Source: a virus
Virus record (IMG/VR): IMGVR_UViG_3300027782_004013
Location: 1-46,278 of that record
DNA: 46,278 nucleotides
Reading direction: 5' to 3' (one strand)
Shown: piece by piece, positions 4,278 through 31,159 of the stretch
Position numbering within the stretch: position 1 is the stretch's first letter
How the letters are laid out: the number at the start of each line of letters is the position of its first letter
Program-made: the position numbers and the translations under genes
Notes under the pieces: generated by a model
What the model was told of the DNA's origin: nothing
Databases searched by the model: none
The model's input: only the letters and a program-made list of their open reading frames with translations

Positions 4278-5036
4278 ATGAATAAATTTTCTCATAATCA
4301 CACAGTAAGAACATTACAGATAATAACTCATCTTCTGGCCGTATGGGGAATAATTCATGTGGCGAATACGCAGATGTACAGTTTGTTGGCACTGTCTGTG
4401 ATCGTATACTGGATAATCGGAGTACTAGGAATCAACATAGGCTATCATAGACTATTGAGTCATCGCAGTTTTAAAACTCACGTATTTTGGGAAAAGTTAT
4501 GCAGCCTAATTGGAGTGATTACTATAGTAGGCAGTCCACTGGCATGGATAGCTGTACATCGGCAGCATCATAGAATCACAGACAGACCAGGCGATCCTCA
4601 CAGTCCTATTCTGTTAGGTAATTTTTCTGCATGGTTTGGATTTTGGAAAATGCCAAAACTAGATCTCAAATTAGTAAGAGATATCAGAGAAAATCAATTC
4701 CAGCGATCTTTGCACAAAAACTATCTGTTGATAATCGCTGCATGGGTATCTTTGTTGTTGATAATCAATCCGTGGTTAGTGATTTATGCATTTGCAATTC
4801 CTGCATGCCTGTGTCTACACAGTACCAGTACTATCATCGTGATAGCACATCGTCACGGATATCGTCCGTATCCCGACGTTAAAGATCACAGTAGAAACAG
4901 TTGGATAGCTAACTTGATCACACTAGGTGAAGGATGGCATAACACCCATCATGCCAAACCATATGCGTGGAACAATCAGGAACGATGGTGGGAATTTGAT
5001 ATACCCGCATATATTATAAGATTTATTAAAGAATGA
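4278..5036 (+). CDS. Membrane fatty-acid desaturase (acyl-CoA/acyl-lipid type), copy 1
   Basis: A 252-residue integral membrane protein with the three histidine boxes of the diiron fatty-acid desaturase family: HRLLSH, HRQHH followed by DPHSP, and WHNTHH near the C-terminus. Hydrophobic helices flank the boxes (roughly residues 15-55 and 140-175). The family introduces a double bond into an acyl chain at the membrane using O2 and an electron donor. Chain length and regiochemistry cannot be told. The stop overlaps the start of the next desaturase (ATGA), so the two are translationally coupled. It follows the last tRNA by 14 bases without its own promoter. Confidence 0.93.
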   Translation: MNKFSHNHTVRTLQIITHLLAVWGIIHVANTQMYSLLALSVIVYWIIGVLGINIGYHRLLSHRSFKTHVFWEKLCSLIGVITIVGSPLAWIAVHRQHHRITDRPGDPHSPILLGNFSAWFGFWKMPKLDLKLVRDIRENQFQRSLHKNYLLIIAAWVSLLLIINPWLVIYAFAIPACLCLHSTSTIIVIAHRHGYRPYPDVKDHSRNSWIANLITLGEGWHNTHHAKPYAWNNQERWWEFDIPAYIIRFIKE

Positions 5037-5797
5037 AAAAATTTGGATTTAATTTTTGGGCAGTGTTTTTGCCCTTTCATTTTTTTGGCATCCTTGCATT
5101 GTTCTACGTACAACAATATTGGCAAGCACTATTAATTTTTTGGTTTCTAATAGGTGTCATTGGCAACGGAGTAGCTGCTCACAGATATTTCGCACACGGC
5201 CAATTCCACACATGGACTCCTGTTCGTTGGGTGTTAGGCATATTAGCCACCCTCGGTGCTATCGGCCCTCTTAACTATTGGGTAATACAACACAAAGCAC
5301 ATCATCTAAGATCAGATACAATCAACGATCCCCACAGTCCTCAGCACAACAGTTGGTTTTATGTTTTTTATGCTTGGACATTCCCACAAGAAAATAATCA
5401 AAAAGAATATCTCAAAGATCGATATGCGGTTAAACTAGCAGTGCAGTTATTGCGAGATCCCTTCTATGCATTCTTCCACAAGCATCATTATAAAATAATT
5501 TTTATATTTTGCAGTATATTGATATTGATAGATCCGGTTTATTTCTTGATCTATTGTCTAGCATACTGTATAGACTTTTTTAGACTAGGTGCTGTGAATT
5601 ACTGGTGCCATCGATCAGGCTATAGAAATTTTGAATCCAATGACGCCACTACCAATAATTTATTGCTTGGCTGGTTGGGTATGGGATTCGGATGGCACAA
5701 CAATCATCATGCACATCCTGGTAGATTAATACTACATCACCGTTGGTGGGAAATTGACATCGAAGGGTATATTGGATGGCTGTTAAAAAAGCCTTGA
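5033..5797 (+). CDS. Membrane fatty-acid desaturase, copy 2
   Basis: A 254-residue desaturase with histidine boxes HRYFAHG, HKAHH and WHNNHH, and four or so hydrophobic segments. It is clearly related to the preceding gene but strongly diverged, so it probably places a second double bond or acts on a different chain. It overlaps the first gene by four bases. It converges on the radical SAM gene, whose stop is only two bases away, with no terminator between. Confidence 0.93.
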   Translation: MKKFGFNFWAVFLPFHFFGILALFYVQQYWQALLIFWFLIGVIGNGVAAHRYFAHGQFHTWTPVRWVLGILATLGAIGPLNYWVIQHKAHHLRSDTINDPHSPQHNSWFYVFYAWTFPQENNQKEYLKDRYAVKLAVQLLRDPFYAFFHKHHYKIIFIFCSILILIDPVYFLIYCLAYCIDFFRLGAVNYWCHRSGYRNFESNDATTNNLLLGWLGMGFGWHNNHHAHPGRLILHHRWWEIDIEGYIGWLLKKP

Positions 5798-5798
5798 A

Positions 5799-7304
5799 TT
5801 ATTTTTTAGTATAATTCAATTTGCCTAATACATAATTCTTAAGATACTGATATACACCAGCATTGTCATAATATGTAGTAGTCTCAGCCGCATGTCCGGT
5901 TATCACTTCTCTAGTATCTACCCATTTTACATTTGCTGCCTGTTCAAATGTCATATTAGCTGTGGTAGCTATCTCGCCAATGAGCCAAATGCTGGTATAG
6001 AATTCTCGATTAGTAATCAACGGATGTGTTAAAATTAACTTCCAGGTATCTTCATATGTAGTACCTGTATGTGTATTTTTCCAATTTAGTACACCTGTGG
6101 TGTTTGAACCGTTGTCTTTGTCTAGATCTACATATCCATATTTCTCATAGTTGTGTGACATTAATGAAATATCATTGCGGTTCCAATTATCTGGATGTGG
6201 TATCCATAACGGAAAACTAGTTACGCGAGTATTGGGTAAATTTTCGTATATCCACGATACTCCTTGTAAAAATCTTTCATGTGTTTCGTATGGCAAACCT
6301 GCTATAAGGCTTATCGATGATCGATACAACATCCTCGCAGAAAAATAATCTTGTATATCTTTTAGACCTTGTTTGATTTTATCAGGGTGCATGCCTTTTT
6401 TAACAGCCTTGCCTGTGGTATGATTTAGAGTTTCAATGCCATAATGATGACCACCGTACCCCATTGCAATCATGCTGTCCCAAGTTTTAGGATTGGATAT
6501 TTTTAGATCAGCTCTGGTAAACCCGCTTATCCATGGCTTGAAATTTAATTGGCCTATTGTTGCATTTCCAAATAGTTCCAGTTTTTCTGGACTCACATTA
6601 CCAGTGCTGTCTGCAGTGAAAAACGTTCGGACACCAAACGTATCATTTAGATATTTTAAATTATCAATATAGTCCTGAACGTCTCTGAAATTATCCCCCT
6701 TGATTCCCAACGGAGTAAAATTACAAAAATCACATTCAAATTTACATCCCCTACTCCATTCAACTCCTAGTTGATCGTTGTGGTGTATAAAATCTCGATC
6801 TTCATATTTTACAAATAACTTTTTCATATAGATGGAAGGGTAATCACTTCCATGTATGAGTTTACCATCGCGATACAATGTGTATTTTAATTTTTCAGTT
6901 CCAGTTCCTAATAGATGTTTAACCAATGCCATTATGGCATTCTCACCGTATCCATTGATATAGTAATGGGCTTTGATTGGACTGCTATTAACTTTCTGAC
7001 TTCCTACAATAATTTTTACTCTAGGAAAATTAGTCTTTATCCAATCAATGATATCATGAAATCCTTGTACTACGTGTTCTTTCGCATGCCAAGTTCCCCA
7101 TGTGTCACTGAACGCCACAAACACTGTATTTGTTGTTATTCGACTTTTGGTAATTTCAAGAAGATAATTGTAAGGTATTATTCCAGCGTAATCAATTACC
7201 TCGACATCCCAGTCTTCATCTCTGAGATGATTGGCTATTCTGTGAGCTCCTAAATTTCTAGCAATATATGTGTTTTGAGCACTGAATATTAATGCGTGAT
7301 TCAT
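5799..7304 (-). CDS. Radical SAM protein with B12-binding-like N-terminal domain
   Basis: A 501-residue protein. Residues 187-194 read CKFECDFC, the Cx3Cx2C iron-sulfur motif of radical SAM enzymes, inside a TIM-barrel-type region (about 180-420). Residues 1-130 resemble a Rossmann-like cobalamin-binding domain, as in B12-dependent radical SAM proteins, but the DxHxxG cobalamin ligand motif is not seen. Such enzymes methylate or rearrange unactivated carbons, often on lipids or natural products. It is the last gene of a three-gene minus-strand operon (diiron protein, radical SAM, radical SAM). The substrate is unknown. Confidence 0.88.
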   Translation of the reverse strand: MNHALIFSAQNTYIARNLGAHRIANHLRDEDWDVEVIDYAGIIPYNYLLEITKSRITTNTVFVAFSDTWGTWHAKEHVVQGFHDIIDWIKTNFPRVKIIVGSQKVNSSPIKAHYYINGYGENAIMALVKHLLGTGTEKLKYTLYRDGKLIHGSDYPSIYMKKLFVKYEDRDFIHHNDQLGVEWSRGCKFECDFCNFTPLGIKGDNFRDVQDYIDNLKYLNDTFGVRTFFTADSTGNVSPEKLELFGNATIGQLNFKPWISGFTRADLKISNPKTWDSMIAMGYGGHHYGIETLNHTTGKAVKKGMHPDKIKQGLKDIQDYFSARMLYRSSISLIAGLPYETHERFLQGVSWIYENLPNTRVTSFPLWIPHPDNWNRNDISLMSHNYEKYGYVDLDKDNGSNTTGVLNWKNTHTGTTYEDTWKLILTHPLITNREFYTSIWLIGEIATTANMTFEQAANVKWVDTREVITGHAAETTTYYDNAGVYQYLKNYVLGKLNYTKK

Positions 7305-8743
7305 CGTCCTTGCAGGCCTTTCAATTGTTCTTTATACAGAGAAAATAATTTGATTTCTTGATCGTACAAATCGCCGGTCAGCGATAAGATCTCTGCTTTA
7401 GGTTTGTTCGCTACATCCTTCAATGTTACTCCTGTGCAGGTAAGTGCTCCTAAAGCCCACATAAAGAATCTGTCACGGTAATTAATATACTGATTTAATT
7501 CAACTGCAAGTTTATAAGCATCCATATAAGTTGAATCGCCCCACCGCCAATTAAACATTTCATTTTCGTCTGGCCATGTAATTTCTAAATCTTTACTGTC
7601 GACTTCCCAAGTACTCTGAGTATAGGTTTTCGAAACACGGTCATCGATCATGATTAATGGTTTGAATTGATATGTACTAATTTTTGATTTAAGAAACCAG
7701 TCGGCGGTTTCAAAATGATGTTCTCTAGATACTCCAGGAATTCCTGCTATTAAGCTGGCATCGATATGTGTATTAGGCCATTTATCTTGTATGTGTAATA
7801 AAAAGTCTTTACCACGTTTTGCACTCCATGGCTTTAGCACCAGTTTAGCTGCCTCAGGATGAAATGTTTCGATACCAAACAATGTACCACGTTGTCCACA
7901 TTCGTGTAAAATATCTTGAGTGTGAGGATGTGCATCTACAAGGTCGGCTCGGTTATATGCTAAAAATTCTAATTTAAATGGTAGTTTATGATAGATATTG
8001 GCTAGATTTTCAATTCTTTTTACATCACTGTTAAATGTTTCATCTATGAAATAATAACTAGTAGTGCCAAAGATTTCATACATTTCTGTAAATTCATCAA
8101 CCATCAGTTCTATATTTTTCTCGTCCGTTCCGCTGCGCTTTCCGAGATTAGGATTACGACAAAACGGACATTTGAAAATACATCCCCGTCCCCATTCTAG
8201 TGGTAATGTTTCGCCGGGTAAAATACAATCATGTTTTTTATACACAAATCTATGTGAACTTATATCAAATTTTTTACGCTGTAATTGTGTCACCATACTC
8301 TTATTGGTCAGCTCGTCTAGAAATTTCAACAGCCAATCTTCACCATATGTGGACTCTGATATATGATCAAAAACTTCTAGGCCTTGTAAAAGATCATGTA
8401 ATCTATGTCCGCCCAAGACTGTTTGTATCTTAGGGAACTGTGATTTTAATTCTGTCAGGGCAGAGTGTATATTTTCTGGAACCGACCTAGCATGAACATT
8501 CATCATGAGATCTCCACTCCAGGTTGACCACATGGTAGAACTAGCACCAATCATCAAGGTGTCTTTGTCGATGAACATTTTTGTTGTATCTATCAGTTCT
8601 TGGGGACTGAATAAATGAGTAAATTCTATTACCTGACAGGTGTACCCGTGCTCTTCAATCCATCTTGCTAGCACATAACAAGATACTATACGCCACATTA
8701 ATGGTCGATACCCTAGCTGACTGTACAAGATAACGTTTGCCAT
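7301..8743 (-). CDS. Radical SAM protein, B12-binding-like N-terminal domain, second copy
   Basis: A 480-residue paralogue of the downstream gene. The Cx3Cx2C motif CIFKCPFC is at residues 188-195, preceded by PLEWGRG, as the other copy is preceded by GVEWSRG. The N-terminal Rossmann-like region again lacks an obvious cobalamin histidine. It overlaps the next gene by four bases (ATGA) and shares one base with the upstream gene, so all three should be made in fixed ratio. Two related radical SAM enzymes side by side suggest successive steps on one substrate (inference). Confidence 0.88.
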   Translation of the reverse strand: MANVILYSQLGYRPLMWRIVSCYVLARWIEEHGYTCQVIEFTHLFSPQELIDTTKMFIDKDTLMIGASSTMWSTWSGDLMMNVHARSVPENIHSALTELKSQFPKIQTVLGGHRLHDLLQGLEVFDHISESTYGEDWLLKFLDELTNKSMVTQLQRKKFDISSHRFVYKKHDCILPGETLPLEWGRGCIFKCPFCRNPNLGKRSGTDEKNIELMVDEFTEMYEIFGTTSYYFIDETFNSDVKRIENLANIYHKLPFKLEFLAYNRADLVDAHPHTQDILHECGQRGTLFGIETFHPEAAKLVLKPWSAKRGKDFLLHIQDKWPNTHIDASLIAGIPGVSREHHFETADWFLKSKISTYQFKPLIMIDDRVSKTYTQSTWEVDSKDLEITWPDENEMFNWRWGDSTYMDAYKLAVELNQYINYRDRFFMWALGALTCTGVTLKDVANKPKAEILSLTGDLYDQEIKLFSLYKEQLKGLQGR

Positions 8744-9495
8744 TATATGCTATAGTTTTGAATTATTAAATCCCAATATTTTTCTCTTGCCTGTATGGCT
8801 TTGATAGCTGCTTGGGTGGCTTCTTGCTGTCTTATTAGATCGTTATCACAGAGTTCCTCGAGTAGGCGTGTTGCTGCTGGTCCATGTTCATTGCCATCGA
8901 TATCGACATGTCTTGCAAGATACCATTTAAATTTATCGCAAGGAACATTTGCTGCTTGTAATTGTGTTAACACAGACTGAAACTGTTCCGGCAATAGATT
9001 TTCTCTACCAAATGCCAGTGCCGCACATATTACCCAGGGTTTTTTAGAATCAATAAATTCAAAAGTAGTCATCATGAACTGCTTGGCAGGTTCGGGAACA
9101 TTTGAATGCGTTACTGCGGATGCAAATCCCTGTTGTTTTACATAGGCTGGCCAGTTGGTTATCCAGGTTGTTTCCAATCCAATTTCTTGCATGGCAGCAA
9201 TGTAACTTTCAAAATGACTGGCATGCTCTCTGTCAATAGTTATATCACTTTCTTCACCTAGTATTATTTCATTTACCCATCTACGAGCAGAACCGCTGTA
9301 TTCTGGCGACCACGGCGATCCGCTAGGTGCAAGTACCTGCTGCAAAGATTTAACCAAACACATAAAATCCCATACGGCAAATACATGATTAACCATAAAG
9401 ATCTGAAGATCCTTAATCGAATTAAGACTCTGTCTTGAGGTTAGCGGATGTTGACGCAATTTCCACTGAGCAGCTTCTATTAATTTCCAGTTCAT
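8743..9495 (-). CDS. DUF3050 haem-oxygenase-like diiron protein
   Basis: A 250-residue all-helical protein with DUF3050 hallmarks: HPL near the start, HVFAVWDFM, EHASHFE and RHVDIDGNEHG. The latter three supply the Glu and His residues expected to bind a di-iron centre in haem-oxygenase-like diiron oxidases. Relatives in that superfamily include UndA, which turns fatty acids into terminal alkenes, so an acyl or amino-acid substrate is plausible but unproven. I start it at 9495 rather than ten codons earlier, because a perfect TATAAATA lies four bases upstream of this ATG, so the message should be leaderless. It is first in the operon with the two radical SAM genes. Confidence 0.83.
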   Translation of the reverse strand: MNWKLIEAAQWKLRQHPLTSRQSLNSIKDLQIFMVNHVFAVWDFMCLVKSLQQVLAPSGSPWSPEYSGSARRWVNEIILGEESDITIDREHASHFESYIAAMQEIGLETTWITNWPAYVKQQGFASAVTHSNVPEPAKQFMMTTFEFIDSKKPWVICAALAFGRENLLPEQFQSVLTQLQAANVPCDKFKWYLARHVDIDGNEHGPAATRLLEELCDNDLIRQQEATQAAIKAIQAREKYWDLIIQNYSI

Positions 9496-9499
9496 GGGA

Positions 9500-9507
9500 T
9501 ATTTATA
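9500..9507 (-). promoter_or_regulatory. T4-type late promoter, leaderless spacing
   Basis: Perfect TATAAATA on the minus strand, four bases before the ATG at 9495. In T4 the late transcript starts about six bases past this motif, which places the RNA 5' end at the start codon. Confidence 0.7.
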
Positions 9508-9573
9508 TGAATGCAATCTCAACAAAATTAAAGTATATGTTAATGAAATTTATAAAAGCCCGTACCGGTTACA

Positions 9574-9581
9574 CATAAATA
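9574..9581 (+). promoter_or_regulatory. T4-type late promoter
   Basis: CATAAATA, 22 bases before the ATG at 9604, with a GGAG ribosome site at about 9592 between them. This is a conventional short leader. Confidence 0.6.
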
Positions 9582-9603
9582 ACAGTATCTTGGAGTAGTA
9601 AAT

Positions 9604-10011
9604 ATGACATTCAGAACAATACATACATTCGAAAAACAAGGTGCAAATTTTTTCGAATTAATTCCAACAATACCAGGTTTGTCCAGTTGCGAGTCTTTTT
9701 TCAACAACAGTCCTCATGTTGAATTCTTTGAATTAAGAATGAACCCAGACAAGTCATACGTAGAAGTACATGTGTATTTCAAAGACGAATCAAATTATCT
9801 CGAGTGGCATAGTACCTGGGGTAATATACACGACGACATTAGAAATAGCGCCTATGAAGTTATGGAAACTATAGGAGTTGATGTAAAAAGATACTGGGAA
9901 ACTACAGACCTTAGTGCTCCGGGGTCTTTGCCTATAACAGAATTTGTCAGCAAGTATATTGTGTATACAGAAATATATGAACCGTTAAAATCATTCACCG
10001 GAACTTTGTAA
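9604..10011 (+). CDS. Small ABM-like (ferredoxin-like fold) protein
   Basis: A 135-residue protein, not confidently assigned. The pattern of a central strand EVHVYFKDESNYLEWHSTW preceded by a short helix recalls dimeric alpha/beta-barrel (antibiotic biosynthesis monooxygenase type) proteins. The N-terminal part of the next gene and the small proteins at 13206 and 13634 show the same pattern. No catalytic residue can be identified. It has its own late promoter and RBS. Confidence 0.55.
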   Translation: MTFRTIHTFEKQGANFFELIPTIPGLSSCESFFNNSPHVEFFELRMNPDKSYVEVHVYFKDESNYLEWHSTWGNIHDDIRNSAYEVMETIGVDVKRYWETTDLSAPGSLPITEFVSKYIVYTEIYEPLKSFTGTL

Positions 10012-10065
10012 TATTTTAATAGATGCTATTTGAAAAATAAATTTATTGGCCGATTATAACATAAC

Positions 10066-11223
10066 ATGACAGCACCATATGTGATTTTTAATGTGTTTAC
10101 TAAAAAACACAGTAATCTATTAAAAATATATGCCGAATGTAACTATGTTCAAAAGACAACCGATCTATTTGAGATCAAAAATGAAATTGTCAATGTCGAA
10201 ACATTTGCCAGTGACTGCAAAGATAAACTAGAAATCCGTATCACTTTCAATGATAAAGAAGGCCATGCTGTTTGGGTTGAACAACATCAACTGTCATACA
10301 ACACGTACTTAGAACAATGGAACGAACATTGTCAAGCCAATCAAGTTAGATGGGATCAATATACCTCGGATGATTGTTATATCAGTGATTTTCAAGGCGT
10401 AACACCATATACTGTAAAAACTCTGATAGATTGGAAATTAACTGCTGTTGAAAAACAAGCATTTATAGATCACATCGCTCCAATCGGATCATACGCCGGA
10501 TACCAAGGCTATGGCAAATTTGAAAGGGGCGGTAATCTTAATGGTGCTAGATATCTCAAAGAGAGGCATGGAAATATAAGACGATTTGGTAAAAGTACTA
10601 AAGCACATAATAAAGATAACTATCCAGCATACATCCTCACCTATCATTTCGATCACATTATCGAAGTGTTGCAATTCCATCTCAGTGACTTATATCTTCG
10701 TTTGAGAAAATTATGTTATGATGTCGAAGCTGTAGCCGAACAGTATATTTCTTCGTGTAATTATGCTATTGTGATAGCTGGACATAAACAGTTAGGAGAA
10801 TCTTTAACCCTACATAGTCATATGCTAGATGATGACGATCGTTATACATTTACCATAGCAGTTAGATTATCAACCGATGATGACAAAGCAGCAGTGTTTC
10901 AAGCATATCCGCCATACCCAGATAATGATCCTATGCTGCCATACTATTTTATTGCCCCTCAAAAATATCCAGACGCTTTAGCTAACCACATAAAAGATTC
11001 AGCCCCAGTGAGTATCCCACTGATCACTGACACCGCTATACTGGCTTTTAATGCATCATACGTTGCACATACTGTAATGTGGACTGATGATATCTATTTG
11101 TTTTTTGTATACGACCATGTTACGTTTAAAGAAGGTGTACTAGAACAAATGAAACAAAACTGTGAACATCAATATTTTTTAGATCACGGTCCTGATAAAT
11201 GTGTATTATATCAAGGAATGTAA
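10066..11223 (+). CDS. Two-domain protein: ABM-like N-terminus plus putative oxygenase-like C-terminus
   Basis: A 385-residue protein. Residues 1-105 repeat the layout of the preceding protein (strand, EIRITFNDKEGHAVWVEQH). The C-terminal half contains HSHMLDDDDRYTFTIAVRL and later YVAHTVMWTDDIYLFFVY, which could be the proximal His/Asp and distal His strands of a double-stranded beta-helix iron oxygenase. That reading is tentative. It is transcribed away from the diiron operon and is followed convergently by the UbiB-like gene. The function is unknown. Confidence 0.6.
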   Translation: MTAPYVIFNVFTKKHSNLLKIYAECNYVQKTTDLFEIKNEIVNVETFASDCKDKLEIRITFNDKEGHAVWVEQHQLSYNTYLEQWNEHCQANQVRWDQYTSDDCYISDFQGVTPYTVKTLIDWKLTAVEKQAFIDHIAPIGSYAGYQGYGKFERGGNLNGARYLKERHGNIRRFGKSTKAHNKDNYPAYILTYHFDHIIEVLQFHLSDLYLRLRKLCYDVEAVAEQYISSCNYAIVIAGHKQLGESLTLHSHMLDDDDRYTFTIAVRLSTDDDKAAVFQAYPPYPDNDPMLPYYFIAPQKYPDALANHIKDSAPVSIPLITDTAILAFNASYVAHTVMWTDDIYLFFVYDHVTFKEGVLEQMKQNCEHQYFLDHGPDKCVLYQGM

Positions 11224-11226
11224 AAA

Positions 11227-12534
11227 TCATTTATTGATTTTTCTTGTTTCAGCAAAGTGCTTTAATAAAACTGGTCCTGCTAAAGATTGTATATTTAAAT
11301 TAGGAGCTATCTGTTTACTGACTCCTTCTACTACCAAAATAGTCTTGGCTAACAACGTAAATTGGTAAGGTACATTTACATCAAAATTTTCCAATGAACG
11401 AAATAAATCAGTTACTACCTTCCCCAAAGAAAAATCTTGTTGTCGTCGATTTACGATTGTTTGAGAAACTGTTTGCAGAGCATTTTCTATTTCCGTACTG
11501 TTTGTGGTCAACGTTAACCAACCCGCTTCTGTGATCAGAGAAATAATTTTTTTGATATTATTAGTATACAATGCAAATAAAATTTTTAATAAAGTAGTTC
11601 GATCCTGTATAGACAGTTCACCCATAATGCCAAAGTCTAGATATATTCTTGTACCGTCGGGCTTTATCCAAAGATTCCCCGGATGTTGATCAGCATGAAA
11701 AAACCCATCTCGAAAAATTTGGACCATTAGACTTTCTAACCCCTGTGATACCAATTTGTCTGTGTCTACTCCTTGAGCACGAAGATCATCAACATGATTT
11801 ATAGGAATACCTTGCATCCTCTCCATAGTCAAAATATTCTTGCTTGACCATTGACTGTATATTCGAGGTATATGAACATATGTAAATTCCTGCATGTTTT
11901 CAGAGAATCGTGTAATACTTGCAGCTTCTTTACGTAGATCTAGTTCAGCTAAAATGCTCTGGCTCAGTTCATCAATGATTTTTGAAATTTTTAATTTCTT
12001 GATGCTTGGTTTATATATTTCAACTAAGCTAACAACTTGACGAAATAGTGTAATGTCTTTTTTAATTTGTATTTCAATATTAGGTCTTAGTATTTTTACA
12101 GCTACCAGTTCACCAGTAATTAACTCTGCATAATGTACCTGAGCCACACTGCCTGCTGCAACAGGAGTTAGATCAAAACTAGAAAAAATTTCATTCAACG
12201 ATAACCCTAGGTCATCCTCAAGAATTTTCACAGCAGTGTGAGAATCGAATGGTTCTACTGATTCTCTTAATAGTTCAAGTTCCTTAACTATACTAGGGGG
12301 AACGATATCCGTACGAGCGGATAACATCTGTCCAAATTTTACATATACTGGACCAAGTTCTTCAAGGGCTTTTCTAATACGGTATCCTACAGTACCGTCG
12401 ATTGGTTTATGTGCAAATACGCTGCGGATTGACTGACCAGCAAATAATAATAATCGTGTTTTGGCTCTTCGGAATAGATACTCATCCAATCTATACTTAA
12501 TCACAACTCCAATGATATCACTTATTCTCAACAT
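11227..12534 (-). CDS. ubiB: UbiB/ABC1 (AarF, ADCK) family atypical kinase
   Basis: A 435-residue protein with the family motifs in order: KFGQMLSARTDI (the KxGQ loop), AGSVAQVHYAE (the A-rich nucleotide loop), VAVKIL, HADQHPGN (catalytic loop) and LDFGIMG (metal-binding DFG). In bacteria UbiB supports ubiquinone biosynthesis and isoprenoid-lipid handling at the inner membrane. A phage copy is unusual. The two hydrophobic C-terminal helices of cellular UbiB are not evident. A start at 12612 would add 26 residues overlapping the divergent gene; I choose the internal ATG at 12534. Confidence 0.9.
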   Translation of the reverse strand: MLRISDIIGVVIKYRLDEYLFRRAKTRLLLFAGQSIRSVFAHKPIDGTVGYRIRKALEELGPVYVKFGQMLSARTDIVPPSIVKELELLRESVEPFDSHTAVKILEDDLGLSLNEIFSSFDLTPVAAGSVAQVHYAELITGELVAVKILRPNIEIQIKKDITLFRQVVSLVEIYKPSIKKLKISKIIDELSQSILAELDLRKEAASITRFSENMQEFTYVHIPRIYSQWSSKNILTMERMQGIPINHVDDLRAQGVDTDKLVSQGLESLMVQIFRDGFFHADQHPGNLWIKPDGTRIYLDFGIMGELSIQDRTTLLKILFALYTNNIKKIISLITEAGWLTLTTNSTEIENALQTVSQTIVNRRQQDFSLGKVVTDLFRSLENFDVNVPYQFTLLAKTILVVEGVSKQIAPNLNIQSLAGPVLLKHFAETRKINK

Positions 12535-12602
12535 AAATAGACCTGAACATATATAAAATATATCATATCTACTTATATGATATAAAATATTAAGGAAAAA
12601 AA

Positions 12603-13217
12603 ATGAGTTCAATCAGACAACTGAACGGCAGTGATGTAGATGCTTTTATAACTTTGGTCAAAACCAGACCTCAAACTTTTATGGGATATAGTGATGATGC
12701 ATTTCAAGAATCAATTACTGAGAATATTCCAAATTGGCTTTCAGATTCCTTGTGTTTTTGTATTGGAGTATTTGATGATACTGAGATGACCGGTGCTATG
12801 GTAGCTATCGAATCACCATACAGTCCCAGTTGGACATGGGCATATTGGGTTAGTAAAGCGGGAATGATAGGTACCATTTTTGATAAAAATTCCGCCAATC
12901 CCAACGAAGGTATTAAAACATTTAGAGAATTAGATAAATTTCTATTTGATGAGATGGAAAAGAAAAGAGGATTGACTAGATTTTATATTGCGTTGAGAGA
13001 TATACCGTCTTCCACTGCCTTGCGTAGTTCTAGATCGTCAGATAGACTATTAACTTTTATGGAAAAAATTAATATGAGCACATCTAGATATAAAGTGTAT
13101 GACGATGTTCTTATACCGGCACAATCCATGCCTAAATATGAATACCAAAAACAAATAATAGGAAATCGAGAATGGCCCATAGATTTATCTATAAAAATGT
13201 GTGTGTTAATCCAATGA
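12603..13217 (+). CDS. GNAT-like acetyltransferase (tentative)
   Basis: A 204-residue protein. The opening IRQLNGSDVDAFITLV is typical of GNAT N-acyltransferases, and a TGAMVAIES strand followed by a long helix is consistent with the fold. The acetyl-CoA loop (Q/RxxGxG/A) is not clear, so the activity is uncertain. It has a good RBS (AAGGA, seven bases before ATG). It is divergent from the UbiB-like gene, and its 3' end overlaps the convergent small gene at 13206. Confidence 0.55.
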   Translation: MSSIRQLNGSDVDAFITLVKTRPQTFMGYSDDAFQESITENIPNWLSDSLCFCIGVFDDTEMTGAMVAIESPYSPSWTWAYWVSKAGMIGTIFDKNSANPNEGIKTFRELDKFLFDEMEKKRGLTRFYIALRDIPSSTALRSSRSSDRLLTFMEKINMSTSRYKVYDDVLIPAQSMPKYEYQKQIIGNREWPIDLSIKMCVLIQ

Positions 13218-13544
13218 CAAGGGTTCGGTAATTTCTCCGGTGTCGCCGTCGATCACAAGCAATTTTATTTCGTGTTTGAAGGCTTCGGTTTCGAATCGAT
13301 TCCAGAACCATTTTTTCATTGGACTGTTTAGAGACTCTTCGAAATGCTTTTTACTTTCCCAAGTAGTAGTAATTTCCCAATTTTGATTTGTAAACACATT
13401 GTCAGTAGCACTGATAAATCCAGAAGGATTGACATTGTTTTTTTTCATAAGCTGTTGAAAAGATAATCCTTGGGTAGTTACTATTCGAAATCGTTCCATG
13501 TTTTCTGGACCTTCGCAGATTAGTTTATATTGTCTGGTATACAT
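13206..13544 (-). CDS. Small ABM-like protein
   Basis: A 112-residue protein. The segment NWEITTTWESKKHFEESLNSP, with a final acidic tail, fits a small dimeric ferredoxin-like (ABM) fold: strand, then a helix with a conserved phenylalanine. RBS ATAGGA precedes the start. The last 12 bases overlap the convergent GNAT-like gene. No catalytic assignment is possible. Such small proteins serve as monooxygenases, cyclases or haem chaperones in natural-product clusters. Confidence 0.55.
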   Translation of the reverse strand: MYTRQYKLICEGPENMERFRIVTTQGLSFQQLMKKNNVNPSGFISATDNVFTNQNWEITTTWESKKHFEESLNSPMKKWFWNRFETEAFKHEIKLLVIDGDTGEITEPLSLD

Positions 13545-13603
13545 TTACAATCATCCTATAATAGTGTTGTATTTAAATAAAATTTAAACACCTAAAATTT
13601 TTT

Positions 13604-13611
13604 TATAAATA
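13604..13611 (+). promoter_or_regulatory. T4-type late promoter
   Basis: Perfect TATAAATA, 22 bases before the ATG at 13634, with a GAAGGA ribosome site between. Confidence 0.75.
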
Positions 13612-13633
13612 TTTCTAACCGAAGGAATAGCAT

Positions 13634-13975
13634 ATGTACTATGGAAGAAGAACCATTATTCGATCAGACGATCTGAGTGATACACAAAAATTAAGAAAAT
13701 GGGTATTCTCATTAACAGAGCATTCGATGTACGGTACAATCGTATCAGACCTAATGTCGATGCCGGGATTTGTACACAAGTTATCGACTGTAAAAGAAAC
13801 AACGGCTGGTCAAGTTTTTATCAATGAAGTTTTGTTTAGCTCAAAAGATTCAGCCGATATGTACTTTAGCGATGAGGGCATACAGGCACTATGGGAATAT
13901 GTAAAAATTGCTGCAGAAGCAGAAGGATTTGCATTAGCTGACGATTACAGGATTGAATTGGATTCAATCGTCTAA
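13634..13975 (+). CDS. Small ABM-like protein
   Basis: A 113-residue protein with MPGFVHKLSTVKE, a central QVFINEVLFSSKDSADMYF strand-helix unit and an acidic C-terminus. It has the same general plan as the proteins at 9604 and 13206. It carries its own late promoter and RBS. The 3' end overlaps the convergent oxygenase gene by 12 bases. The function is unknown; the fold assignment is by pattern only. Confidence 0.55.
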   Translation: MYYGRRTIIRSDDLSDTQKLRKWVFSLTEHSMYGTIVSDLMSMPGFVHKLSTVKETTAGQVFINEVLFSSKDSADMYFSDEGIQALWEYVKIAAEAEGFALADDYRIELDSIV

Positions 13976-14503
13976 CAACAGACCGGGGTCAGGATTAAAG
14001 GACAATGTTAACGTTATCCTGGGAGACCTATTCTCGTCCATGATTACATTATGTCCTTCACTAATACGAACAATAGTGGGTTGGTTAATTTCTACCCGAT
14101 CAACTTCGATATAGTCACGATTAGTAGTGGCATAAAATGGTGCACCAGTAGGCAACATTAGCCTTTTAGATTGCACATTTTCGTAAAAAGTTGTCCAAGT
14201 TCCCTCACAGTTTAGCAATGGAATATTAATTCTCGCAATAGAATCAGTATAATCCTTGTGTGGTATTGAATCATAATTGTTCCACATTAAGTAAATGTTA
14301 GCATCCTCACAAAACAATCCAAGTTTAAAAAATGATTCTTGAATTTCAGGAACGTGTTCTAAGAAATTTAAATGTGTTAGATTAATAAACGGCCCTCGAT
14401 AATTTTTCTTATCAAAGAAGTTTGATTTAGATTCTAAAAACTCTAAACTCTTTTTAATAATGATATCTGTTTTATCAACTTGTATTCTTTTCCAGTATTG
14501 CAT
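13964..14503 (-). CDS. Putative 2-oxoglutarate/Fe(II)-type oxygenase
   Basis: A 179-residue protein. IPHKDYTDSIARINIPLLNCEGT contains an HxD pair, and SEGHNVIMDENRSPRITLTLSF gives the distal His and an Arg that would hold 2-oxoglutarate. This is the arrangement of small jelly-roll dioxygenases. The phrase NIPLLNCEGTWTTFYE recurs almost unchanged in the proteins at 21491 and 23927 (LPIINCEGTYTVWYD, NIPIYNCKDTTCDFYE), so these are paralogues. It is the third gene of a minus-strand set with 14510 and 15409. The substrate is unknown. Confidence 0.7.
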   Translation of the reverse strand: MQYWKRIQVDKTDIIIKKSLEFLESKSNFFDKKNYRGPFINLTHLNFLEHVPEIQESFFKLGLFCEDANIYLMWNNYDSIPHKDYTDSIARINIPLLNCEGTWTTFYENVQSKRLMLPTGAPFYATTNRDYIEVDRVEINQPTIVRISEGHNVIMDENRSPRITLTLSFNPDPGLLLDD

Positions 14504-14509
14504 AGTATC

Positions 14510-15412
14510 TTATAACTCTATTGTATAATTCAAATTGTTGGCATATTTGGAAATGCTGGCCGTTAGCAAAGAATCTAATTTCTTCGAGTGCCACATAGCG
14601 TTGACTATAATTTGATAACTAGTCTTACCGTGATAGTCAATACCATAGACTTGGGTGCCGTTACTCCAACAAAAGCTGTTGGTATCGTCTGGAAGATCAA
14701 TATATCGAGTTTCCCCCGTTTCTATGTCTGACACATATATTGTAGGTTGTGTGTTCTCATCGTACAGCATTATTCGAAACTCAGTTGGACATTTCCAGGC
14801 CCATGATTGTTCTCTATGAGGAACAATATCTTTTTTAGTTTCAACTATTAAAATATTCGACAGAGAATATATTGGGAATTGAAACATAATCTTAGAAATA
14901 AGATCAAAAAATATCTTATGCTTATATAACTTTTTACTAAAGGCACCAATCGGAGTACGACCTTGTATGTGTCCTGTTTTATTAGAAAACTGACTAGTAG
15001 TCATCACTCCGTTATTATATAAATCGTGTAGGTTAAAATCTATTAAACAACCTGATGTAATGTATAATCCATAGAACTCTGCAGAATCAAAAGATTCATT
15101 TGTTTTTGCAAGGTCTATCTTTTCTCTTTCCCAAATCTCTTTAAACTCATCGAAATTGTCAATTTTAAATTTTGGTAGGGCAAGAGGCAACCATTTAATT
15201 CCTTTAAATTTTTCTCCAAGATCAACCATATAAGTTTGATAGTAATCGGGTATCGGATAAGGTTTGGTCCACGATGCGTATGAAAATTTTCCGTTAGATT
15301 GCCTACAAGGTCCGAGTTTAGTTAAACTAGGATTCATTACAGTATTGTCGAACTGATTAACCTTCGCCTGTTCTCGTGCTAGATCAATTAGCTCTTGTTT
15401 GTTTTCTATCAT
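14510..15412 (-). CDS. Oxygenase-like paralogue with altered metal site
   Basis: A 300-residue homologue of the upstream gene, sharing WKCPTEFR, the MLxDENTQPTxYV strand and FCWSNG. Where the upstream copy has HRD, this one has HRE (PHREQSW). The distal histidine region reads QVYGIDYHGKTSYQ instead of SMHGSTYNGKRKF, so the distal His is replaced by Tyr. The 2-His-1-carboxylate facial triad is therefore probably broken or rewired. It may be a regulatory or non-catalytic partner. It overlaps the upstream gene by four bases. Confidence 0.65.
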   Translation of the reverse strand: MIENKQELIDLAREQAKVNQFDNTVMNPSLTKLGPCRQSNGKFSYASWTKPYPIPDYYQTYMVDLGEKFKGIKWLPLALPKFKIDNFDEFKEIWEREKIDLAKTNESFDSAEFYGLYITSGCLIDFNLHDLYNNGVMTTSQFSNKTGHIQGRTPIGAFSKKLYKHKIFFDLISKIMFQFPIYSLSNILIVETKKDIVPHREQSWAWKCPTEFRIMLYDENTQPTIYVSDIETGETRYIDLPDDTNSFCWSNGTQVYGIDYHGKTSYQIIVNAMWHSKKLDSLLTASISKYANNLNYTIEL

Positions 15413-16236
15413 ATTTCAAGTTTATAATTTAATCTATCTTTATATTTTGTAATACTACGCTCAAGCAAATCGTCGGTCTTCTTAGAATGTTGTATCATTG
15501 AAGCACAAAGAATAAATTTACGTTTGCCATTATATGTAGATCCGTGCATTGATTTACCGTTTGACCAACAAAACGTATTTGTGTCGGCTGGAAGATCAAC
15601 AAATACAGGTTCTGAATTATCATCTCCAACATATAAAGTCGGTTGTGTGTTTTCGTCAAACAACATAGATCGAAATTCAGTCGGACACTTCCAATACACA
15701 CCTTTATCTCTATGAGGACTGATAGGCATCTTACTTTCCCAAATATACAAGCTCAAGAGAGTGTGTATTGGATAATAAGTATTAACTTGATCTAATATAC
15801 GTTCAAACATTGGAATCTTACCTGTATATAACTTTCCAGCAAAACTATTGATTTCAAGAGGAATTAAAGGATGCTGAAAAAGATGAAGGCCATTAAATTG
15901 ACTAACATTCCAACTACTTTTATCTTTCCAAGGGTGTTTTTCTTTTGTCCACGGTTCTGCAATATCAGGTTTAACACGTAATACATCGTGACTTTGATGA
16001 TTCCATATATCTAAAAATTCATCATAGTTATCAAATTCAATCTTCGGAGTGTCAATTGGTAACCAAACAATTCCTTTATACTTCTCTTCTAGATTCCGCA
16101 TATATGTTTTGTACTCATCGGAGAATTGATCCCAACCAACCGCCTCTTCTTCTTTTGGAGTACCAACTGCAATCTTTGCATTTTTAAGTAAAGTTTTAGG
16201 ATCTTTTGCTCTAAACGCATCCATAATTTCGCCCAT
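15409..16236 (-). CDS. Putative 2-oxoglutarate/Fe(II)-type oxygenase
   Basis: A 275-residue protein with HRD in SPHRDKGVYWKCPTEFR and a distal His plus basic residue in SMHGSTYNGKRKF, as expected for HxD...H iron oxygenases. The N-terminal 130 residues are helical and of unknown role. The start may be four codons later (16224), where an AGGA sequence lies 11 bases upstream. A TGTAAATA motif at 16252-16259 on this strand is a probable late promoter. It is first in a three-gene oxygenase-like operon. Confidence 0.7.
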   Translation of the reverse strand: MGEIMDAFRAKDPKTLLKNAKIAVGTPKEEEAVGWDQFSDEYKTYMRNLEEKYKGIVWLPIDTPKIEFDNYDEFLDIWNHQSHDVLRVKPDIAEPWTKEKHPWKDKSSWNVSQFNGLHLFQHPLIPLEINSFAGKLYTGKIPMFERILDQVNTYYPIHTLLSLYIWESKMPISPHRDKGVYWKCPTEFRSMLFDENTQPTLYVGDDNSEPVFVDLPADTNTFCWSNGKSMHGSTYNGKRKFILCASMIQHSKKTDDLLERSITKYKDRLNYKLEI

Positions 16237-16251
16237 CCTATATCAGTGATA

Positions 16252-16259
16252 TATTTACA
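16252..16259 (-). promoter_or_regulatory. T4-type late promoter (one mismatch)
   Basis: TGTAAATA on the minus strand, upstream of the oxygenase operon starting at 16236 or 16224. Confidence 0.5.
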
Positions 16260-16277
16260 TAAAATTTAAACCTAAAA

Positions 16278-17444
16278 TTAATATAATGATTCAAAAATAG
16301 CAATAGAGGTTCGACCACCGAACCCAAAACTAGCCTTCATAAAGATATTATTTTTTAACTCTACTGCTTCAGTGATTATCCTTGGATCGTCACTTAACGG
16401 ATTTGACAAATTATAATTAGGCTGTAGGTATCGATTTTTCACAGCTTCTAATCCATACGCAGATTCTATAAGTCCACAGGCACTCATAGTGTGTCCTAAG
16501 TACCCTTTGAATGACACTATAGGAATATTAATGTTTTCAAACACACGTTGAAACACATCTAGTTCAATGTCGTCACCGATTAATGTACTAGTAGCGTGTG
16601 AATTAAAAAAAGAAATATCATGTGCAGATAACTCAGCTTGAGTTAATGCTTGATTTATTATCTTGATTTGATGTTCACAAGACGGATCGTGGGCAGTCAT
16701 ACTAGTTACTTTGGCACCACTGGCTATTGATCTCAATTTGGCTCTAGGTGTTAGATTATGCGTTTTTAAAGTTTCTTCATCGCAGATATACCAAAGTGTG
16801 CCGCCTTCGCCTTGTAAAAATCCATCTCTGTTTTTATCAAATGGTTTACATTGTCCTCCATCCTCTGTAGAGATGGCACTGGTACATTGCCAATAATATT
16901 GTAACGTAGCAAACAGTGGCATATCAACTGCTCCAACAAGAGCAGCAGATGTTTGGCCAGTTTGTATTAACATCGCGGCAAATTGTAGATTGAACATGCT
17001 GCTAGAGCATGCTGCATTTAAACTGGTATTGATACCTTCTAGTTTTAACTTAGAGGATATTATAGCACTGAGCAAATCATGATTAGCACTGAATAATTTT
17101 GTAGGACTAAATCTTCTCTGCTGTGACGAGAACGCCCGTGTAAACTCTTCTTTTACCGCAGCACCGATTCCGAATGACCCGTAAATCACAGCAGTGTCCT
17201 TGGGCATAGAATGCCTGCTAGACATCTCATTTATCAGATCTAACACTAGACGAAATGGAGTATAGCTGTTGTCCACATAGTTCATGTGGAATCCCTTGGT
17301 GCTCATTACATGAGGAAATTCTTCTGTATTATATCGTTTTATGGTTTCAGCTCCAGGAGTAGCTGCCATATTTTTATAATTTTCTTTTATCTGTACTCCG
17401 AGACAATCTCTAACCTGGTAGTCTACGATATAAACATCTTTCAT
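16278..17444 (-). CDS. Beta-ketoacyl-ACP synthase (KAS, FabF-like)
   Basis: A 388-residue condensing enzyme. The catalytic triad is intact: C146 in NAACSSSM, H283 in NSHATSTLIGDD, H318 in GYLGHTMSACG, with the C-terminal GFGG loop. It would condense an acyl primer with malonyl-ACP by decarboxylation. The protein is slightly shorter than E. coli FabF, and its N-terminus is divergent, closer in feel to the KAS proteins of dedicated natural-product clusters than to housekeeping FabF (judgement, not a search). The start overlaps the ACP stop (ATGA), coupling it to its carrier protein. Confidence 0.93.
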   Translation of the reverse strand: MKDVYIVDYQVRDCLGVQIKENYKNMAATPGAETIKRYNTEEFPHVMSTKGFHMNYVDNSYTPFRLVLDLINEMSSRHSMPKDTAVIYGSFGIGAAVKEEFTRAFSSQQRRFSPTKLFSANHDLLSAIISSKLKLEGINTSLNAACSSSMFNLQFAAMLIQTGQTSAALVGAVDMPLFATLQYYWQCTSAISTEDGGQCKPFDKNRDGFLQGEGGTLWYICDEETLKTHNLTPRAKLRSIASGAKVTSMTAHDPSCEHQIKIINQALTQAELSAHDISFFNSHATSTLIGDDIELDVFQRVFENINIPIVSFKGYLGHTMSACGLIESAYGLEAVKNRYLQPNYNLSNPLSDDPRIITEAVELKNNIFMKASFGFGGRTSIAIFESLY

Positions 17445-17809
17445 TTTTTCAACATCTTTGAGGGATCCTGGCTATCTGTGATGTATCCTATTAGATCTTT
17501 CCATTTCAATAGTGTGGCAATTTCTTTGTCATCAATCACACAACCAAATTCTTCTTCGATCTGTATTACCAATTCCAAGATGTCAATACTATCAACCTCG
17601 TTGTTTTTACGCCTTGCTTGGGCTATAGATTCTGGAAGTGATTCTAATTCCTTAGCCAGTTCTTCGTCGTTGAGAATTTTTAGGTCCTTGATGCTCATGT
17701 CTGGCGGAAGTGGGTATGTCAATTCTAATTTGAGATAATCGTTGATCATTTCGATCAATCGGTGCTCAACTTGTTCTTCATTCCTTGGGGTCCAAGATTC
17801 CGTTGTCAT
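17441..17809 (-). CDS. Acyl carrier protein with N-terminal extension
   Basis: A 122-residue protein. EVDSIDILELVIQIEEEFG around residue 74 is the ACP signature; S74 is the expected phosphopantetheine attachment site. Normal ACPs are about 78 residues. Here some 40 extra N-terminal residues precede the four-helix core, which could dock a specific partner. RBS GGAGA precedes the ATG, and TGTAAATA lies just upstream. It sits between FabZ and KAS in one operon. Activation would need a phosphopantetheinyl transferase, and one is encoded at 31160. Confidence 0.88.
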   Translation of the reverse strand: MTTESWTPRNEEQVEHRLIEMINDYLKLELTYPLPPDMSIKDLKILNDEELAKELESLPESIAQARRKNNEVDSIDILELVIQIEEEFGCVIDDKEIATLLKWKDLIGYITDSQDPSKMLKK

Positions 17810-17829
17810 TTAGGGTCTCCGTTGCTGTA

Positions 17830-17837
17830 TATTTACA
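17830..17837 (-). promoter_or_regulatory. T4-type late promoter (one mismatch)
   Basis: TGTAAATA on the minus strand, 20 bases before the ACP start, overlapping the end of FabZ. It would allow ACP and KAS to be transcribed late, separately from FabZ. Confidence 0.5.
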
Positions 17838-18294
17838 TAGATATGCCGGCCACTGCTTTTAATTTTCCGTGGCTAACTGTGATATTATCTACTGAGGCTG
17901 ATGCATCAAATTCAAAAATCTTTCTTGCACGTCTAGTTAATCGAGTGTGTATTACTAGTTGATCGCCGGGAACAACTACTTTCTTAAATCTTACTTGATC
18001 TGCGGCGGTAAAAAGAATGCCGCCTTGAATGAATTCATGTAGTAGGTCATTGTTTTGTAGATATTTGAAAGCCAATACCGTACTAGCCTGTGCCATAGCT
18101 TCGATCATCATAACACCGGGCATTATGTGATTCCCAGGAAAATGTCCTTGTACATAGGGTTCATTAACAGTGAAATTTTTAATCGCTGTAAGAGTACTTT
18201 CATCATAGTCTAAAACTCGATCTATCATCAAAAAAGGATAACGATGAGGCAATATGTCTAACAGTTCAGCGGAGGTGATCGTTTTCATATTCAT
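17833..18294 (-). CDS. fabZ: 3-hydroxyacyl-ACP dehydratase FabZ
   Basis: A 153-residue hot-dog-fold dehydratase with LPHRYPFLMIDRV, the catalytic loop QGHFPGNHIMPGV and the following EAMAQ glutamate. It removes water from 3-hydroxyacyl-ACP to give trans-2-enoyl-ACP. The length is normal for FabZ. An ATG 15 bases upstream overlaps the TATAAT box of the minus-strand promoter and is probably not used. From 18294 the transcript would begin at or next to the ATG. It is first in the FabZ-ACP-KAS operon. No ketoreductase or enoyl reductase is present in the window. Confidence 0.93.
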   Translation of the reverse strand: MNMKTITSAELLDILPHRYPFLMIDRVLDYDESTLTAIKNFTVNEPYVQGHFPGNHIMPGVMMIEAMAQASTVLAFKYLQNNDLLHEFIQGGILFTAADQVRFKKVVVPGDQLVIHTRLTRRARKIFEFDASASVDNITVSHGKLKAVAGISM

Positions 18295-18300
18295 ACTTAT

Positions 18301-18328
18301 ATTATACACTTATTTCAAGAAAAAACAA
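18301..18328 (-). promoter_or_regulatory. Sigma70-type promoter for FabZ, leaderless spacing
   Basis: On the minus strand TTGTTT, 16 bases, then TATAAT; the ATG at 18294 follows the -10 box by six bases. The RNA should start at the start codon. Confidence 0.6.
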
Positions 18329-20173: not shown

Positions 20174-20181
20174 TTTTTTAT

Positions 20182-20255
20182 CGCGGGATAGAGTAACGGT
20201 AATTCAGAAGTCTCATAAGCTTCAGATCTTGGTTCGATTCCAGGTCCCGCAACCA
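20182..20255 (+). tRNA. Initiator tRNA-fMet(CAT)
   Basis: The sequence starts CGCGGGA and ends TCCCGCA-A-CCA, giving a C1xA72 mismatch, the hallmark that blocks elongation and permits formylation of bacterial initiator tRNA. The A11-U24 pair of initiators is also present. The anticodon loop CTCATAA is identical to that of E. coli tRNA-fMet. The three consecutive G-C pairs normally at the base of the anticodon stem are absent (GAAGT/GCTTC), so P-site discrimination may be altered. CCA is encoded. Confidence 0.88.
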
Positions 20256-20276
20256 GTTTTTACAAAGGCAAAAAAA

Positions 20277-30481: not shown

Positions 30482-30489
30482 TATTTATT
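30482..30489 (-). promoter_or_regulatory. T4-type late promoter
   Basis: AATAAATA on the minus strand, 21 bases before the ATG at 30460, with an AAGGA ribosome site between. Confidence 0.55.
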
Positions 30490-31119: not shown

Positions 31120-31159
31120 GTGATTTATGCTCGGTGAGACTAAACGAGATAACTACTGT

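Follow-up and report, generated by a model that had tools for sequence, protein, structure and literature searches.

We examined a 46,278-bp stretch of viral DNA, the entire IMG/VR virus record IMGVR_UViG_3300027782_004013 (hereafter the window), which is probably one piece of a larger phage genome. It carries an acyl-biosynthesis module built around acyl carrier proteins (ACPs), comprising a beta-ketoacyl-ACP synthase (KAS), the dehydratase FabZ, the holo-ACP synthase AcpS, two ACPs, GNAT-type proteins, membrane desaturases, and 2-oxoglutarate (2OG) oxygenase-like proteins. This gene content recurs across phage contigs, catalytic residues are kept, the genes are co-inherited and under selection, and predicted structures give a GNAT fold for one core protein (GNAT31524) and a 2OG dioxygenase fold for another (2OG15409). 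We favor, at about even confidence, the reading that this is a virus-specific, largely self-contained type II acyl-ACP cluster of large T4-related myophages, in which an acyl chain would be handed to a GNAT N-acyltransferase to yield a desaturated or oxidized acyl-amide lipid or metabolite. Genes were called by simple open reading frame (ORF) picking, and several start codons are uncertain.

The chain-building core lies on the minus strand. The KAS (positions 16278–17444) matches the N- and C-terminal Pfam ketoacyl-synt domains (1e-20 each), and its active-site residues C146, H283, K313, and H318 are kept in all nine phage loci that hold the full module. Its ORF overlaps by 4 nt the co-oriented ORF of ACP1 (17441–17809), an acyl carrier protein with an N-terminal extension (Pfam PP-binding, 2e-4), whose phosphopantetheine serine sits in a DSI motif in each of the nine. 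FabZ, the 3-hydroxyacyl-ACP dehydratase (17833–18309; Pfam FabA/FabZ, 8e-29), scores above the NCBIfam NF000582 cut-off (154.9 versus 113), with GHFP and the glutamate of PGVMMIE intact. GHFP and PGVM..E were present in all seven FabZ sequences inspected, and the PG..E pattern in eight of nine, the ninth (contig G005) reading PGVMLME. The KAS passes no equivalog cut-off, reaching 159.8 bits against the 493.75 of the fabF model TIGR03150, and is 21–22% identical to Escherichia coli FabB and FabF. No enoyl reductase or malonyl transacylase was recognized among the island ORFs read; a ketoreductase-like short-chain dehydrogenase/reductase (SDR), absent from the window island, occurs in two of the nine full loci and in two variants.

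The second half of the module, AcpS, GNAT31524, des3, and ACP2, sits about 12 kb from the first part in the window, with overlapping ORFs; on other contigs, locus comparison places FabZ, ACP1, and KAS near AcpS, a GNAT-fold gene, a desaturase, and a second ACP. AcpS, a phosphopantetheinyl transferase (PPTase) on the plus strand (31127–31534, likely start 31160; Pfam ACPS, 1e-16), exceeds the TIGR00516 cut-off (76.5 versus 59.8) and has the motifs GxGIDI and AKxWSxKE. It overlaps GNAT31524 by 11 nt, which in turn overlaps des3 by 16 nt, all three being co-oriented. GNAT31524 (31524–32072, plus strand), a candidate acyl-ACP N-acyltransferase, was modeled by AlphaFold with a pLDDT of 93.4, and Foldseek matched the model to many GNATs at a probability of 1.00, the best PDB structures being mostly generic GNATs at a TM score of about 0.5. 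Its structural matches include a viral protein annotated as an acyl-homoserine lactone synthetase (E 9e-4), and no sequence match to solved chains was found for the window copy. The CoA-binding motif A, [RQ]xxGx[GA], is missing in 17 of 18 members of this family. The membrane fatty-acid desaturase des3 (32057–32860, plus strand; Pfam, 1.5e-14) carries HRLLSH, HRGYHH, and GEAWHNNHH and is found in seven of the nine loci. ACP2 (32828–33073, minus strand; Pfam PP-binding, 3e-8; DSL motif) is found in six, only in loci with des3, and its top NCBIfam match is the cispentacin ACP AmcB (2.5e-11), under cut-off. Immediately upstream of AcpS, at 30485–31093 on the minus strand, is a QueC-like PP-loop protein (Pfam QueC, 4e-9), which in locus L127 likewise precedes AcpS (92% identity).

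The full module was found in nine contigs that stem from different metagenome records, namely the window, G001, G003, G004, G005, G006, L121, L122, and L130/G008; L131 carries the same island as L130 and was left out of this count. By BLAST, the KAS proteins of the other eight contigs are 57–69% identical to that of the window. Profile searches detected a core of nine families in all nine contigs: FabZ, ACP1, KAS, AcpS, GNAT31524, GNAT12603, ABM13206, ABM13634, and 2OG15409. Each contig also has at least one membrane desaturase, and four of nine have a Rieske protein and four a radical SAM protein. Because the same set, in a gene order that is near-constant among the loci mapped, recurs in nine diverged contigs, its assembly is not a matter of chance. 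The genes are under purifying selection, with dN/dS values of 0.02–0.18 (NG86, pairs with computable dS) for AcpS, GNAT31524, GNAT12603, des3, ACP2, KAS, ACP1, FabZ, and ABM13206. G008, a contig of 364,554 bp, has the KAS, a T4-type major capsid protein gp23 (8e-100), and a terminase (2e-23) on one sequence. Most contigs are fragments, and absences carry little weight except in this 364-kb record and one of 355 kb. In a collection of isolate phages, GNAT31524, 2OG15409, and the island DNA had no match. KAS matches in that collection were rejected as evidence of the pathway in cultured phages, since their identity was 30% or lower and they came from bacterial-looking records with bacterial fab genes; AcpS matches fell in the same kind of record.

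The nine KAS proteins group as one clade (support 100/100), whose long branch falls outside all of the cellular groups in the sample, and the divergent phage KAS of L124 and L125 join them with moderate support. The tree lacked named type II polyketide synthase (PKS), aryl-polyene, and polyunsaturated fatty acid (PUFA) ketosynthase references, and a long-branch caveat applies to this placement. The KAS query retrieves clade members from viral records, with E-values of 1e-176 or better. When cellular sequences were scanned with universal motifs, the top KAS matches were about 31–32% identical over the best segment, and two 7-residue KAS patterns, used in another scan of cellular sequences, retrieved no relative. 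At E ≤ 1e-50, the clade was found in none of 369 genomes of one bacterial class (that of a Pseudomonas genome); GNAT31524 likewise had no convincing member in these genomes, its single match containing seven stops. The pathway was not found in the bacterial genomes sampled. Judged from these comparisons, the phage KAS is a virus-specific clade and not a recent cellular acquisition.

These results bear on an initial annotation, made by a model from the sequence alone, that had proposed a phage-borne acyl/polyketide-like island at 4278–18294. The conserved synteny in nine viral contigs, one of them the 364-kb contig with gp23 and terminase, bears out the core of the proposal; it was to fall if the island were absent from related phages and chimeric, and the island is present in nine contigs. 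Desaturases, FabZ, ACP, and KAS lie where they had been placed, with catalytic residues intact by Pfam and motif checks. The bounds were too narrow, with AcpS, the GNAT-fold gene, des3, and ACP2, half of the module, outside them at 31127–33073, and the description of the genes as cellular chemistry does not fit a KAS that forms a virus-specific clade on a long branch. It had also assigned ketoreductase, enoyl reductase, and malonyl transacylase to the host. The latter two were indeed not found, while an SDR lies in the islands of two relatives and in two variants.

Parts of the module also occur without the chain-building genes. AcpS, GNAT31524, and des3 are present in L132 (a contig of 354,959 bp), L135, and L137, with ACP2 in L132 and L137; neither KAS nor FabZ was found in these three loci, and a search for KAS of the whole L132 and L137 records returned none. 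Across a wider set of 36 phage loci that encode GNAT31524, 33 have a desaturase no more than 6 kb away (immediately next to it in 27), 26 have a PP-loop protein, and 16 a Rieske-type protein. In these loci (L154–L188 and L127), the neighborhood of PP-loop, Rieske, GNAT31524, and desaturase genes often has several PP-loop copies and mostly lacks KAS. This distribution can be read as a layered build-up, in which a widespread unit of GNAT and desaturase (with PP-loop and Rieske proteins) would have gained AcpS and ACP2 and then FabZ, ACP1, KAS, and the small proteins. On contig G007 (L035:9907–11082), GNAT31524 is fused to a second domain that looks GNAT-like by eye, beside des3 and two copies of 2OG15409; this contig has neither KAS nor AcpS. 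Separately, the T4-like contigs L144 (14579–16817), L148 (15150–16567), and L149 have a different KAS with AcpS nearby, which forms a separate clade in the tree. An ACP adjoins the KAS in L144 and L148, L144 also has a desaturase, and the KAS of all three sit among what look by eye like core replication genes (PhoH-, exonuclease-, and SSB-like). The profile matrix showed no FabZ, ABM, or 2OG15409 core in L144 or L148.

Under the favored reading, AcpS would turn apo-ACP1 and apo-ACP2 into their holo forms, and the KAS would condense malonyl units on ACP1, loaded by host FabD. Reduction would fall to host FabG, or to the island SDR where present, and FabZ would dehydrate the intermediate to enoyl-ACP. 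The GNAT-fold N-acyltransferase would then take the acyl-ACP and acylate an amine, so that the chain would not be released as a free fatty acid. Desaturases would act on acyl-ACP2 or on the membrane-bound product, after which the PP-loop ligase and oxygenases of the 2OG and Rieske types would tailor it. The predicted product, formed inside the cell during infection, is a lipophilic metabolite or an aminolipid-like N-acyl lipid that may alter the host membrane or act on the host or on rivals. Supporting this reading are the co-inherited nine-family core, its matching gene order in the loci mapped, the cut-offs passed by AcpS and FabZ, the intact catalytic residues of KAS, ACP, and FabZ, the ORF overlaps, the GNAT fold and the GNATs without motif A, the adjacency of GNAT and desaturase, the restriction of ACP2 to loci with des3, the fusion of u10066 to a 2OG15409-like domain, the low dN/dS values, the resemblance of the PP-loop family to NAD synthetase, and the persistence of AcpS, GNAT31524, and des3, usually with ACP2, in L132, L135, and L137 where KAS and FabZ are missing. 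LuxI/FeeM-type GNAT enzymes use an ACP donor, and the absence of motif A from GNAT31524 is compatible with such a donor.

Several points weigh against this reading. GNAT-fold proteins use many donors, and a missing motif A allows for an ACP donor without requiring one. Neither an enoyl reductase nor a malonyl transacylase was found and an SDR is present in just two of nine loci, so that the host would have to supply part of the chain chemistry. The KAS is too divergent for assignment of chain length or starter unit, and its position in the tree depends on a long branch; no profile confirms the ABM-like label of the small proteins. The pathway and its product are predictions from sequence and modeled structure. 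Somewhat below even confidence, we suggest further that the pathway evolved in jumbo myophages, with its own carriers and activating enzyme and no cellular counterpart, and yields a desaturated and oxygenated N-acyl lipid not made by cells. If true, a virus lineage would for the first time be seen to own a multi-enzyme acyl-ACP biosynthesis.

The main rival, which we consider unlikely while giving it more weight than any other, is remodeling of the host membrane, with elongation by KAS and FabZ and the action of the desaturases giving longer or more unsaturated phospholipids that would maintain membrane fluidity or promote lysis, a role proposed for the desaturases of cyanophages and of a sea-ice virus. 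Every locus has a desaturase, which is also the commonest partner of GNAT31524; viral desaturases have been described in that role (PMC7300359), and fabF together with a stearoyl-CoA desaturase is reported in freshwater pelagimyophages (PMC7029224). Such remodeling would, however, need no private carriers, PPTase, or GNATs, though these rank among the most constant parts, and AcpS, ACP2, the GNAT, and des3 persist without KAS. Nor are the 2OG, Rieske, and PP-loop partners phospholipid enzymes. It is improbable, and more so than remodeling, that the GNATs instead transfer acyl groups from ACP to a protein, to phage DNA or RNA, or to the virion surface, in the manner of HlyC or of hypermodification, for counter-defense or virion stability. 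Both GNATs are invariant (nine of nine), GNAT-fold enzymes do acylate proteins and nucleic acids, the 2OG oxygenases that resemble ABH2 and PHD2 could act on nucleic acid or protein, and a QueC-like PP-loop protein adjoins the module. Yet the core does not co-vary with genes for any substrate protein or for the synthesis of modified bases, and the membrane desaturase that adjoins the GNAT in 27 of 36 loci points to a membrane-embedded lipid.

We regard as still less probable that the island is a loose hotspot of unrelated auxiliary genes that share no pathway and stay close together through modular exchange. The radical SAM, DUF3050, Rieske, SDR, and UbiB genes do vary among relatives, and the window module is split by about 12 kb; nine families nonetheless occur together in nine of nine contigs in near-constant order with tight overlaps, dN/dS is low, and domains are fused between members. 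An assembly chimera, with a bacterial gene cluster joined to a phage contig, can be practically dismissed. The island G+C content (0.34–0.39) is below that of most of the flanks (0.38–0.45), but the same island is found in nine contigs of different metagenome records and the KAS clade was not found in the cellular genomes scanned. Because G008 has the island KAS, gp23, and terminase on one 364,554-bp sequence, a chimera is removed as an explanation.

The tailoring and accessory genes of the first part begin with two further membrane fatty-acid desaturases on the plus strand, des1 (4278–5036; Pfam FA_desaturase, 3e-16; HRLLSH, HRQHH, GEGWHNTHH; accessory, five of nine loci) and des2 (5033–5797; Pfam FA_desaturase, 5e-12; HRYFAH, HKAHH, GFGWHNNHH; seven of nine), which overlap by 4 nt. 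Each of the three window desaturases has the three histidine boxes of the Delta-9 type (HX4H, HXXHH, HXXHH). On the minus strand follow two accessory radical SAM proteins, rSAM1 (5799–7304; Pfam Radical_SAM, 8e-8), with a weakly B12-binding-like N-terminus (1e-3, under cut-off), and rSAM2 (7301–8743; Pfam Radical_SAM, 5e-7; three of nine), and a heme-oxygenase-like DUF3050 protein (8743–9525; Pfam, 7e-77; solved relative 9vwb, 1e-46), which among the nine loci is found in the window only and occurs also in G002, a relative outside the nine. The initial annotation had correctly located both radical SAM genes, each with CxxxCxxC, and DUF3050; the weight it placed on them was excessive, as they are accessory, in four and one of the nine loci, respectively. 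The constant partners are instead AcpS, two GNATs, 2OG15409, and two small proteins. Its list also overlooked an ABC1/UbiB-type atypical kinase at 11227–12612 on the minus strand (Pfam ABC1, 8e-74; KxGQ motif; five of nine).

On the plus strand, a putative small ABM-like protein (9604–10011; no family match; six of nine) precedes u10066 (10066–11223), an uncharacterized protein with conserved HxH and H in alignment and no match in a PDB search. In L132 and L135, u10066 is fused to a 2OG15409-like domain and, because of these fusions, is taken to be functionally tied to 2OG15409. GNAT12603 (12603–13217, plus strand; core), which had been called GNAT-like, is a probable GNAT-type protein with only a weak N-terminal match to a PDB GNAT (E = 0.0066), and motif A is missing in 12 of 12 members. 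Two small conserved proteins of the core follow, ABM13206 (13206–13544, minus strand; 49–63% identity), with no Pfam match and no PDB profile match below 0.1, and ABM13634 (13634–13975, plus strand; identified in alignment). The next three genes, all on the minus strand, are oxygenase-like. The 2OG-oxygenase-like protein 2OG13964 (13964–14503; HxD...H) has invariant H82, D84, and H151 in alignment and is found in six of nine contigs. Its neighbor 2OG14510 (14510–15412) is a paralogue whose distal metal histidine is replaced by tyrosine in four of four aligned members (the window, G005, L121, and L130), and is possibly a non-catalytic partner of 2OG15409. Among the oxygenase-like proteins first proposed, it is 2OG15409 (15409–16236) that is borne out by its predicted fold: AlphaFold gave a pLDDT of 82.7, and Foldseek matched PHD2 and other 2OG oxygenases at 3e-5 (probability 1.00, TM about 0.4), with H175/D177 and H231 of the window copy forming HxD...H. 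Beyond FabZ, a PP-loop ATP-pyrophosphatase (18366–19253, plus strand; eight of nine) matches PDB NAD synthetase (1.5e-5) as well as LarE/QueC-like proteins, the family resembling NH3-dependent NAD synthetase.

Elsewhere, the window has 19 tRNAs, 17 of them within the first 4.3 kb, and genes matching phage families, including the endonuclease phrog_8420 (4e-78), phrog_11903 (3e-64), and weak tail and baseplate matches. The closest isolate relatives of the endonuclease, at identities below 50%, are in phages of about 260 kb infecting Erwinia, Dickeya, and others; among uncultured contigs, which are the closest kin of the backbone, G001, G002, G003, G005, and G007 share the endonuclease at 65–77% identity, and G002 has many right-arm genes in common with the window (40–86%). 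The T4-type late promoter TATAAATA was not enriched in the window (3 found versus 4.8 expected). At 20130–20504 (plus strand), a match to the RNA polymerase Rpb6/omega family at 6e-6, barely above cut-off, with a homologue 44% identical in G005, suggests a possible phage-encoded omega-like subunit. The protein at 24846–27563 (plus strand; 905 aa) has a signal-peptide-like N-terminus, a YncE/lactonase-type beta-propeller, a TIG-like end, two CxxCH heme motifs (CASCH and CGNCH), and a weak CCP_MauG match, and is a probable phage-encoded diheme cytochrome c by these features; a 72% identical copy adjoins the G005 island. Also adjoining the island, in G001, G003, and G005, are highly similar proteins that by eye are TROVE/von Willebrand-like (L012:5–913, L019:16926–18335, and L030:9022–10431). 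Tricarboxylate/TRAP-type solute-binding-like proteins were noted by eye on phage contigs at L014:15376–18209 (G002, together with a beta-keto-acid-cleavage-like enzyme), L023:9769–10686 (G006), and L125:11818–12699. Such solute-binding proteins are abundant in Burkholderiales, and their presence would be a hint toward a host in that order.

The usual picture of phages is one of lone auxiliary genes that adjust the pathways of the host. In the present lineage of large phages, a biosynthetic core of nine families is maintained under purifying selection, with carriers, an activating enzyme, and a KAS lineage of its own. This suggests that a small-molecule pathway can belong to a virus instead of being borrowed. 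The module supplies a defined gene set for seeking a virus-specific lipid in nature and opens unstudied enzymes to assay, among them the KAS clade, the GNAT, 2OG15409, and u10066.

Among known systems, bacterial type II fatty acid synthase (FabF/FabB, FabZ, AcpP, AcpS) shares the reaction classes, catalytic residues, and organization as discrete proteins. The phage module differs in that no FabD, FabH, or FabI was found, in a KAS outside the cellular groups sampled, and in being phage-encoded and coupled to GNATs, membrane desaturases, and 2OG oxygenases. Small type II PKS-like clusters with FabZ- and FabF-like enzymes, such as cispentacin amc, likewise combine a KAS, a FabZ-like protein, and an ACP with tailoring enzymes, and the phage KAS and FabZ also match AmcF and AmcE. 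Membership was rejected, with AmcB (43.6 against 80), AmcE (81.1 against 140), and AmcF (126.2 against 325) all under curated cut-offs; the phage FabZ fits ordinary FabZ far better, there is a single KAS, and the cluster is virus-encoded. An analogy to ladderane-type FASII and radical SAM clusters was set aside, the radical SAM proteins being accessory. With the GNAT N-acyl synthases LuxI, FeeM/NAS, and OlsB, GNAT31524 shares a GNAT fold beside a dedicated ACP and desaturase and the lack of canonical motif A, whereas it has no sequence match to solved chains, its best PDB structural matches are mostly generic GNATs, and its acyl-ACP donor and amine acceptor are predictions.

Closest among viruses are the freshwater pelagimyophages PMP-D, T4-like phages with a KAS and a desaturase, probably in the arrangement of L144 and L148; the passage on them in PMC7029224 mentions neither ACP nor AcpS, and the L144/L148 KAS is a separate clade. 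Roseobacter prophages carry fabG-acpP-fabF, hence an ACP and KAS on phage-assigned DNA, but in the order of the bacterial fab operon and with no PPTase or GNAT in the passages describing them (PMC8224337). A review of phage-encoded biosynthetic clusters (PMC10452541, which cites Dragos et al. 2021) describes them as rare, found for the most part in temperate phages, and encoding mainly bacteriocins; those clusters are multi-gene too, whereas the present one belongs to large phages of the gp23 type and encodes an acyl-ACP pathway. No phage KAS-ACP-FabZ-AcpS cluster was found described in the open-access literature, subscription papers and preprints being outside the scope of the search. Among the nearest described cases found, none is said to unite FabZ, ACP, KAS, PPTase, and GNAT in a cluster that is conserved and specific to viruses. 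Phage-encoded biosynthesis as such is known, and there is a fair chance that this module falls in a category of its own.

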